From a virus: a DNA stretch of 38,690 nucleotides. Of this stretch, positions 9,630 through 33,667 are shown in pieces (positions within the stretch are counted from its first letter, which is position 1; each line of letters starts with the position of its first letter). The position numbers were made by a program, and so were the translations under genes. The notes beneath the pieces were generated by a model that saw only the letters and a list, made by a program, of their open reading frames with translations, searched no databases and was not told where the DNA came from. The stretch is taken from IMG/VR virus record IMGVR_UViG_3300037587_000213, positions 1 through 38,690 of that record. The stretch is one strand, 5' to 3'.

Positions 9630-9877
9630 TTGGCCTCCATTCTCATAATATCCGAGTGGATACGTCTATATTCATTAAACGAAGGATAAATGTGTATAGG
9701 TATTTTATACCCATAACGCCTCTTTTTGCCATGCCTTTTATCTACTACGTATATAACATGATCGTCCCACTGCCTATAGGGAACAAAAGTAATGTCTAAC
9801 CACGCATACTCACTACTAAGCCTTTTTACTAACCAATTCCAAAGCGCTGTTTCCTTTTCTCCAAGTATTTCGTTCAT
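9626..9877 (-). CDS. Hypothetical protein, first gene of operon B
   Basis: An 83-residue protein (MNEILGEKETALWNWLVKRL). The body has alternating hydrophobic and basic strands (HGKKRRYGYKIPIHIYP). It is the first gene behind structured leader RNA B, with AAGGAG before the ATG, and is coupled to the next gene by an ATGA overlap. Unknown function. Confidence 0.58.
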   Translation of the reverse strand: MNEILGEKETALWNWLVKRLSSEYAWLDITFVPYRQWDDHVIYVVDKRHGKKRRYGYKIPIHIYPSFNEYRRIHSDIMRMEAK

Positions 9878-9897: not shown

Positions 9898-10006
9898 AAA
9901 CCCCCTTGCGCGGCAGTTATGGCTAACGTACACACAAGGGGGTTTCAATGTTCCTCCCTTTCGGGAAGCTGTAAAATCTGTAATCTGCCTTTAATACGTT
10001 AGCCAT
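9898..10006 (-). ncRNA. Structured leader RNA B (candidate pseudoknot/attenuator)
   Basis: Read on the minus strand from the predicted +1 (10006). P1 5' strand 10006-9995 (ATGGCTAACGTA) pairs perfectly over 12 bp with 9930-9919 (TACGTTAGCCAT). P2 is a UUCCC-GAAA-GGGAG hairpin with a GNRA loop near 9967-9954. P3 5' strand 9945-9935 (AAACCCCCTTG) pairs over 11 bp with 9908-9898 (CAAGGGGGTTT). The P1 3' strand lies in the P3 loop, giving an H-type pseudoknot order. A further GGCAG (9990-9986) / CTGCC (9916-9912) pairing is possible. P3 is followed by TTTTCTATGTTT and could act as a terminator. Element order matches leader RNA C. Confidence 0.65.
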
Positions 10007-10012
10007 ATAAAT

Positions 10013-10041
10013 AGATTAGCATAACGTATTGGCGTTGTCAA
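10013..10041 (-). promoter_or_regulatory. Sigma70-type promoter of operon B
   Basis: TTGACA at 10041-10036, 17-base spacer, TAATCT at 10018-10013 with TGC just upstream (extended -10). The predicted start is base 10006, the first base of leader RNA B. The -35 box starts three bases after the TAG of the last operon A gene. The spacer contains TACGTTATGC, similar to the P1 strand, which could mark an operator. Confidence 0.7.
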
Positions 10042-10044
10042 GTC

Positions 10045-10251
10045 CTATATCGGCGTCCACGTAGTAGCGCCGTTACCTATGTCCGTCCATACCGGCGCGG
10101 CTTGAGGTACGCCAAAGTAAAACAGAGGCCACCAAAGATAGGTCAGAGGCCAGTAACGCACGGGCCAGTACGCCGTCCCGAAGGTAGCGGCCGACCGACT
10201 TAAGTCAAGCCACGTAGCGGTCGCCGTACCCGAAGCGTCCGTCCACGTCAT
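10045..10251 (-). CDS. Small aromatic-rich virion-region protein
   Basis: A 68-residue protein extremely rich in Trp, Tyr and Phe (YWPVRYWPLTYLWWPLFYFG). Its ends (WTDASGTATATWLD and WTDIGNGATTWTPI) resemble repeated WTD motifs seen in small phage appendage proteins. The start overlaps the stop of the preceding gene by one base. It is the last gene of the structural operon. Unknown role; a virion surface or fibre accessory piece is inferred from context. Confidence 0.6.
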   Translation of the reverse strand: MTWTDASGTATATWLDLSRSAATFGTAYWPVRYWPLTYLWWPLFYFGVPQAAPVWTDIGNGATTWTPI

Positions 10252-16517: not shown

Positions 16518-17714
16518 CTATCGCATTATTAAAGGTTGCTTTTTAGCCCCAAACAGAGGATTAGCCTCTACAAATGCTTTCCGTACTTTAAGGAATCCTC
16601 TATCTAATTGGCCTTGCTCCTCTTCGTATATAGCGGCCATATTGGCTAAGTCAATCTCTCTCCCTGCTACTTTTCTCTGATATTCGATTAATTTCCTATT
16701 CCCTTCGGGTGTACGCTCAATTCCTGATACCGCGCTCCTGTAAACCTCGAAGTCTTTATCCGTCATAACACCGCTACCGGGTTTTCTCATGCCAAGAGCC
16801 ATTTGGTTAGATAGGGCAATAGACGCCTCTTTATTGCCGAGATTCGGGTCTATATCCATTCCGGCACGCTGTAAATATCGAGCTATCTGCGTGCCCGTTT
16901 CCGCAAATGCGCCAGTCTGCACCCCTTCCATTAGTTGCGTCATTCTATCTAAGTCGGCTATCTTATTCTGCGCTAACTCTGCGTTGGTTTGATAATCCTC
17001 TGCCTTTTTAGCCCAACTCTGGCCTCGCGCCTTTTGATATGCTCCCTGCTCGGCGCCGACACTAACTTTTACACCACCGGCCTTTTTCTGTGCGAGGAGA
17101 TAGTTTAAAGCAACCTTCGCCTGCTGATCACCCCCGGCCGCCTGCATAGCCAAGTCTTGTATATTAAGACTTTTAGGGGCCTTTGGCTGTAATAGCCCTA
17201 ATCCTGCACCAGGTTCTATCTGCCCCGATCCTATCCCAGCGCCTACAAGCTCGGCCAGACCGCCTTGCGGTGCGCTCGGCGTTACTCCGCCCGGCGTAGG
17301 CCCACCCATCATGGCTGGCGCTCCTATCCCTACTCCTACCCCTGTATCCGTAGGTACGGCCGTAGGCGGAACCCCTGGCGTCGGCATCTGTGGCGTCTGT
17401 ACGACCCCCGGCCCACCATACATTCCAGAGACTTTCTCGCCGAACTTTCTACGCGCTTCTGCCTGTGCCTGCGCCTGCGCCATCTGTTGTGTCGCCTGTA
17501 TCTGTGGTAAGGCCCCCTGTTGTCCCTGTTGGAAGCCCTGCAAGCCTTGTCCAAGAGCGTGAGCCATAGAACCTGACCGCGGATCAAAGGACGGCGCGCC
17601 TGCCTGCAACATCTGCGCCCCCATACCCATAATACCTTGCCGGAGCATAAAGTTACGCTCTTCCTCTGAAAGTCCTGCGCCTCCAGGCGCAGAGCCTATG
17701 TCGAATATACCCAT
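16518..17714 (-). CDS. Ejection-type internal virion protein 2
   Basis: A 398-residue protein. Met/Gln/Ala-rich N-terminal part (GFQQGQQGALPQIQATQQMA, coiled), then a Gly/Pro-rich low-complexity stretch (about 95-170), then a helical C-terminal half. Composition and position match podovirus internal or ejection proteins. No enzyme motif is visible. SD present; start ten bases after the preceding stop. Confidence 0.62.
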   Translation of the reverse strand: MGIFDIGSAPGGAGLSEEERNFMLRQGIMGMGAQMLQAGAPSFDPRSGSMAHALGQGLQGFQQGQQGALPQIQATQQMAQAQAQAEARRKFGEKVSGMYGGPGVVQTPQMPTPGVPPTAVPTDTGVGVGIGAPAMMGGPTPGGVTPSAPQGGLAELVGAGIGSGQIEPGAGLGLLQPKAPKSLNIQDLAMQAAGGDQQAKVALNYLLAQKKAGGVKVSVGAEQGAYQKARGQSWAKKAEDYQTNAELAQNKIADLDRMTQLMEGVQTGAFAETGTQIARYLQRAGMDIDPNLGNKEASIALSNQMALGMRKPGSGVMTDKDFEVYRSAVSGIERTPEGNRKLIEYQRKVAGREIDLANMAAIYEEEQGQLDRGFLKVRKAFVEANPLFGAKKQPLIMR

Positions 17715-33423: not shown

Positions 33424-33667
33424 TTTCCCTTGACTCTCTATATATCTCGTCTGTTATAATCGTAGCGGCGCCGTGCTGAGAAGCTACAAGTGCGGCCTTT
33501 AGCTTAGAATACACACCACCCGTCCCATAGTCCCCTGCGCCGGAGTTCTCCTTGGTAAAGCGGAGACCACAAAACGCCTCGCCATCGGCAAAGAATCCAT
33601 CAACTACAACATCCTCACCCCCAAGCTCTATCGATGTTATTGCCCTAATTAACCTTGCATCGCTCAT
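33407..33667 (-). CDS. Hypothetical protein
   Basis: An 86-residue protein (MSDARLIRAITSIELGGEDV) with a Gly-rich loop (ENSGAGDYGTGGVYS) and no recognised family. Three bases after the TPR-glycosyltransferase stop. Confidence 0.55.
   Translation of the reverse strand: MSDARLIRAITSIELGGEDVVVDGFFADGEAFCGLRFTKENSGAGDYGTGGVYSKLKAALVASQHGAATIITDEIYRESRENGASA

Follow-up and report, generated by a model that had tools for sequence, protein, structure and literature searches.

Stem-loops of the ompA type at the 5′ terminus stabilise mRNA; the put element of phage HK022, which acts on polymerase, is a tandem pair of hairpins carrying conserved residues; and HDV-like ribozymes are built on interlocked P1 and P2 helices, with a catalytic C located in the joining region ahead of the final strand. 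The nearest described phage case to the leaders reported here is that of T4 gene 32, in which a pseudoknot ahead of the gp32 start is bound by gp32 itself (PMC3014915) and which a 2010 review considered possibly the only viral pseudoknot in translational autoregulation (PMC3014915). Our subject is a pair of leaders, A and B, in a virus record of 38,690 nt (IMGVR_UViG_3300037587_000213; the whole of it is called the window), and their counterparts in other phages.

Like the T4 leader, each is a predicted pseudoknot in a phage mRNA leader with an A/U-rich linker and a downstream ribosome-binding site (PMC3014915); the T4 pseudoknot, however, is small, is bound by gp32 and sits ∼67 nt ahead of the start codon, whereas the present leaders span from the predicted +1, have stems of 9−17 bp and precede first genes unrelated to SSB. 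The gene 32 arrangement, in which the pseudoknot immediately precedes the gene of its own ssDNA-binding protein, is not that of leaders A and B, the first genes being an 83-aa orphan (A) and a phrog_874 family member (B), with SSB lying inside the operon. In the ompA type, as is predicted for the present leaders, a helix sequesters the 5′ end and guards against 5′-end-dependent decay, but there it is a simple hairpin, whereas in these leaders P1 would be closed over another helix with which it interlocks. As with HK022 put, two phage transcripts each carry one element close to the start; the put sequence is conserved, though, and its hairpins are adjacent and not interlocked, whereas here sequence is not conserved and the P1 3′ arm lies within the P3 loop, so the put-like element suggested in the initial annotation was set aside. 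Another of its suggestions, a riboswitch, was not supported in the sense of a ligand riboswitch because there are no conserved aptamer nucleotides: P1 arms, L2 and L3 are at chance similarity between leaders, and no motif is common to the phages. An HDV-like ribozyme was rejected as well, the L3 joining region being 0−1 nt in several leaders and Rfam giving no match. Attenuators based on intrinsic terminators likewise place a GC-rich hairpin and a U-rich stretch ahead of the first gene, downstream of the promoter; the present leaders differ from them in that no antiterminator arm overlaps, the P3 loop is very large and P1 is anchored at the predicted +1.

At the curated gathering cut-offs of Rfam 15 no leader was matched, in the window or in four other leader-carrying loci, in line with the earlier remark that no known class is recognisable; matches below cut-off were at chance level (e.g., His_leader at 16.4 bits, with 49 needed). 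The open-access literature that we searched held no description of such a leader, and the kind is apparently undescribed. Phage transcripts have to withstand host RNases and at the same time pass terminators, and a recurrent leader defined by geometry alone would mean that a layer of phage gene control has been overlooked, one that is hard to detect with sequence searches, nested-structure tools or homology-dependent covariance tools. Such a leader would also serve as a portable part for 5′ UTRs.

Leaders A and B in the window

Both leaders adjoin the two top-scoring sigma70-like promoters of the window's coding (minus) strand (Table 1). The elements of leader A run in the order P1 5′, P2, P3 5′, P1 3′, P3 3′, with a P1 of 12 bp (13 bp counting one extra U−A pair), a P3 of 11 bp and, after it, the U-rich tail TCTATGTTTAAGGAG (RNA form UCUAUGUUU). 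The initial annotation had placed the predicted +1 on the first base of P1, had picked out a GNRA hairpin (CTTCCC-GAAA-GGGAGG in the DNA) and had described a GC-rich P3 with the 3′ strand of P1 inside its loop, and the sequence agrees on each point. The −35 and −10 elements of promoter A together score 14.1 bits by weight matrix, within the window's top three; a simple consensus scanner run on the window missed this promoter. The gene upstream stops at 10045 (minus), with TTGACA directly after it, and the nested fold of leader A has z = −3.8. The second copy, formerly placed near 2886−2983, is leader B (2886−2984), which repeats the plan of leader A, L1 hairpin included; both close with a U-rich stretch, AAGGAG(G) and then ATG. 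Two strong sigma70-like matches (TTGACT...TATAAT) at 33460 and 37641 on the plus strand, opposite to the main genes, are without a pseudoknot leader.

Table 1. Positions of leader elements and adjoining genes (window coordinates for leaders A and B; coordinates of the named locus for the other phages)
Feature	Position	Strand	Basis or remark
−35 of promoter A, TTGACA	10041-10036	minus	sequence; 17-bp spacer to −10
−10 of promoter A, TAATCT	10018-10013	minus	sequence, promoter scoring
P1 5′ arm, leader A, ATGGCTAACGTA	10006-9995	minus	first base is the predicted +1
P2 hairpin, leader A, CUUCCC-GAAA-GGGAGG	9968-9953	minus	GNRA loop; sits in long linker L1
P3 5′ arm, leader A, AAACCCCCTTG (RNA form AAACCCCCUUG)	9945-9935	minus	sequence, helix scan, fold
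P1 3′ arm, leader A, TACGTTAGCCAT	9930-9919	minus	within P3 loop
P3 3′ arm, leader A, CAAGGGGGTTT (RNA form CAAGGGGGUUU)	9908-9898	minus	sequence, helix scan, fold
Shine-Dalgarno, leader A, AAGGAG	9888-9883	minus	sequence
First gene of operon B, 83 aa	9877-9626	minus	ATG at 9877
−35 of promoter B, TTGACA	3018-3013	minus	sequence, promoter scoring
−10 of promoter B, TAGATT	2995-2990	minus	17-bp spacer
P1 5′ arm, leader B, UGCGAGUGAGG	2984-2974	minus	sequence, helix scan
P2 hairpin, leader B, UUCCC-UUUG-GGGAA	2955-2942	minus	sequence, energy estimate
P3 5′ arm, leader B, AGAACCCUCACCG	2939-2927	minus	sequence, helix scan
P1 3′ arm, leader B, CCUCUCUCGCA	2921-2911	minus	sequence, helix scan
P3 3′ arm, leader B, CGGUGGGGGUUCU	2898-2886	minus	U-rich tail, then AAGGAGG
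First gene after leader B, phrog_874 family	2867-2112	minus	family match
G001 leaders	L075 5450-5536; 18244-18170	plus; minus	start-codon-anchored scan
G003 leaders	L079 15717-15629; L078 17428-17536	minus; plus	start-codon-anchored scan
G002 leaders (a, b)	L008 10383-10468; 11557-11660	plus	promoter-anchored scan
G029 leaders	L130 17040-17128; about 239-326	plus	promoter-anchored scan

No family match was found for the 83-aa first gene of operon B, nor any homologue among viral contigs. Within the early operon lies a gene of the radical SAM family (phrog_9298, 3642−4502), with an N6/N4 DNA methyltransferase gene (4651−5595) nearby.

The whole window was scanned for pairs of interlocked helices with Turner stacking, one irregularity being permitted per helix; an earlier version with lenient mismatches was discarded because it left the real sequence inseparable from shuffles. 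On the minus strand the first rank fell to 10007−9897 (−56.5) and the second to 2984−2886 (−46.0), and in 20 shuffles the per-strand best totals fell between −37.7 and −48.2. By score alone leader B would not stand out; its identical plan, its promoter and its paralogy to A support it. The interlocked P1/P3 leader architecture is real and more than chance.

In leader A, GGCAG of L1 (9989−9985) and CUGCC of L3 (9916−9912), both minus, could form a third interlocked helix of 5 bp. The spacer of promoter A contains a 9-mer, AATACGTTA (10030−10022, minus), complementary to 10002−9994, that is, to the P1 5′ arm and the next bases (p < 0.002). Such a third copy would suit a reading of the inverted P1 arms as DNA operator half-sites instead of RNA helices, but P1 differs in sequence in leader B and all the others, none of which has a third copy of comparable strength, and the P3/P1 interlock order is always identical; we regard this as the least credible of the explanations considered. 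AATACGTTA and the P1 5′ arm would occur together only in read-through RNA from upstream. Sequestration of the P1 arm in such RNA was rejected as a class feature, the complementary stretch being present only in A and weakly in B.

Recurrence and covariation

Phage DNA amounting to ∼2.4−2.9 Mb was fetched through relatives of the terminase, the phrog_874 protein and Erf, as whole contigs where possible, and was searched with both a start-codon-anchored and a promoter-anchored scan. The former returned six sites of at least 40 bits, two each in the window, G001 and G003, against 0, 0, 0, 1, 0 and 0 in six shuffles. With the G002 and G029 leaders, the architecture is present in four further distant phages, two copies apiece, which gives ten leaders when the window's pair is included. 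Interlocked pairs of at least 40 bits with P1 3−9 nt past the −10 made up 7 of 13 in the real DNA and numbered 0, 0, 1 and 0 in four shuffles (2.9 Mb). P1 begins 4−9 nt past the −10 in 8 of the 10 leaders, by prediction at or next to +1 (6 nt in A, 5 in B, 4 in G002a, 6 in G002b, 7 and 6 in G029, 8 in G003−, 9 in G001−), a count to be read with the caveat that the G002 and first G029 leaders were recognised by eye, partly via their promoters. For the six sites picked blind to promoters, the top promoter inside 160 nt precedes P1 by 5, 6, 8, 9, 12 and 34 nt. The best promoters of G001+ and G003+ lie further upstream, which would leave unpaired 5′ bases.

Across phages a U-rich tract follows P3, with a ribosome-binding site 7−19 nt later. 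The five phages range in G+C from 0.38 to 0.66 and have little in common beyond a phrog_874 gene, itself the fetch query for four of them; distant genes are common to G003 and the window, and to G001 and G003. Because it recurs in pairs in four distant phages, we take the architecture to be real and apparently an undescribed mRNA shield or switch.

Leader B and one G029 leader (gene L130 351−989) each precede a phrog_874 gene, and some relatives of this family carry ASCH-domain or RNA-binding annotation. Together with the SSB, the Erf-like annealing protein and the other replication proteins encoded in operon B, and with the gp32 precedent, this could point by analogy to a translational operator bound by a phage protein. 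Yet nearly every leader precedes a different first gene, a leader stands before just 2 of the ∼40 phrog_874 genes with upstream regions examined (G029 and window B), and the loop sequence is not conserved across phages; an operator of the T4 style is quite unlikely. A link between leader and phrog_874 was rejected, the common presence mostly reflecting how the loci were fetched, as was a link to the G001 downstream gene, homologues of which occur in Pseudomonas phages Dolphis and Jeremy without the leader.

Searches of cultured phages found no DNA similarity to the leaders, only short gene fragments for the flanking genes and no clear copy; HK022 (early region only), VpV262, CVT22, RothD and L3 were scanned and gave no clear leader, and a terminase-based prophage search found nothing. 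Alteromonas phage PB15 (KX982260.1, L225) has a 44-bit interlocked candidate at 16577−16455 (minus), with a GCAA hairpin in L1, before a small gene. We note it as a lead only, since it has no clear promoter and is not retained at a comparable place in the relative XX1924.

Covariation in related leaders, which the initial annotation had proposed to look for, is found between paralogues. Judged by their sequences, leaders A and B are paralogues: the promoter region (p = 0.0015), the P3 3′ arm (p = 0.03) and the region from tail to start (p < 0.0005) are alike, and the P1 arms are similar only at the shuffled level (p = 0.78 and 0.92) with pairing retained. The two G001 leaders are alike in the upstream region (p = 0.0055), the P3 arms (p = 0.02−0.04) and the tail (p < 0.0005); their P1 arms (p = 0.62−0.63) form ten perfect pairs in each. 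L2 and L3 show chance-level similarity between paralogous leaders. P1 covaries, its arms wholly different between paralogous leaders and its pairing intact, in the window and in G001. Because the A/B and G001 pairs behave alike, two independent duplications have replaced the P1 sequence yet kept its pairing; retention of pairing rather than sequence would be expected for a mechanical role.

Helix geometry and the role of the leader

Whether the two helices interlock or compete had been left as alternatives in the initial annotation. Interlocking is borne out; competition is doubtful, as P1 and P3 arms share no bases and, in 9 of the 10 leaders, L2 and L3 together measure 8−23 nt and L1 at least 12 nt, enough to span P1 and P3, respectively. 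P1 is 10−14 bp across leaders. L1/L2/L3 are 12/17/0 and 21/18/0 nt in G001, 15/20/1 in G003−, 49/4/10 in A and about 34/5/12 in B, with L2 long where L3 is short and vice versa, as if one strand had to bridge P1; G002a, whose L1 is short as scored, is the one poor fit to this geometry. By a rough sum in which the penalty is an estimate, the nine leaders tested all have a pseudoknot energy lower than their nested minimum. Because the arms do not overlap and the linkers span the helices, coexistence of P1 and P3 as a pseudoknot is sterically possible.

The most likely role, which we put forward tentatively, is that of a stability shield that seals the mRNA 5′ end, akin to the 5′-end protection structure listed among the options of the initial annotation. 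Each leader would be a 5′-terminal H-type pseudoknot filling almost the entire 5′ UTR: the first transcribed bases would pair with the downstream strand of P1 once the nascent RNA is long enough, and the GC-rich P3 would next close across that strand, locking the 5′ end in a helix. Nothing but a brief A/U-rich linker and the ribosome-binding site would stay single-stranded, and the compact fold may insulate that site. The benefit would be mechanical, a base-paired 5′ triphosphate being a poor substrate for 5′-end-dependent decay, whether by RppH followed by RNase E or by RNase J. Single-stranded 5′ ends are what RppH and RNase E require, and mRNAs are stabilised by hairpins at the 5′ end (PMC3997798). 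We favour the sealed 5′ end because P1 is in register with the predicted +1, which a switch would not need, and because P1 is kept independent of sequence; taking the predicted start sites, the first transcribed base is paired in most leaders. Against a shield, a plain 5′ hairpin would suffice, so the interlocking of P3 and the U-rich tract are left unexplained, and the predicted starts of G001+ and G003+ leave 5′ bases unpaired.

The U-rich tract fits better with a promoter-proximal conditional terminator, which we hold to be possible, if less so. P3 and the tract would act together as an intrinsic terminator immediately ahead of the first gene; P1, forming early, would tie the P3 loop to the RNA 5′ end and hinder completion of P3 before polymerase passes, both helices being about one turn or longer, and a factor acting on P1 or the polymerase speed would set read-through. 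The terminator-like character of P3 and its tail, remarked on earlier in leader A, extends in part to the other leaders: at least 5 of the 8 nt after P3 are U in 8 of the 10 leaders (background 0 of 99), the mean is 5.3 of 8 against a background of 1.9, and A, B, G001+, G001− and G029-1 reach 6−7. Nested folds prefer P3 over P1, and terminator hairpins directly ahead of Shine-Dalgarno sites are common in phages. U runs are short (1−3) in 6 of the 10 leaders, however, the longest reaching 4 or more in only four, and P3 loops are mostly 24−34 nt, an unusual size for terminators; a scanner limited to short loops finds none, and just about half of the leaders resemble good terminators. Since no P1 arm overlaps a P3 arm, there is no classical antiterminator, and a terminator/antiterminator pair with arms competing for bases is therefore disfavoured. 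The +1 register would also be unnecessary. Shield and conditional terminator stand close and may both hold together. That the leaders form a sequence-independent class, in which the geometry of the knot does the work and ligand, protein and base sequence play no part, with the 5′ end threaded into the loop of a terminator hairpin to give topological control of termination and mRNA life, seems rather unlikely to us. A sealed 5′ end and a terminator-like 3′ end would also suit a stable small RNA of ∼110 nt terminated at P3, but no seed or other sequence is conserved between copies and the ribosome-binding site is closely coupled, which makes this very improbable.

A pattern search with the A and B tails matched just ordinary terminators ahead of Shine-Dalgarno sites. 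In many phages (L195−L221, pattern GGGTTNTNTATTTTAAGGAG) an ordinary intrinsic terminator stands directly before Shine-Dalgarno and ATG, and its U tract enters AAGGAG.
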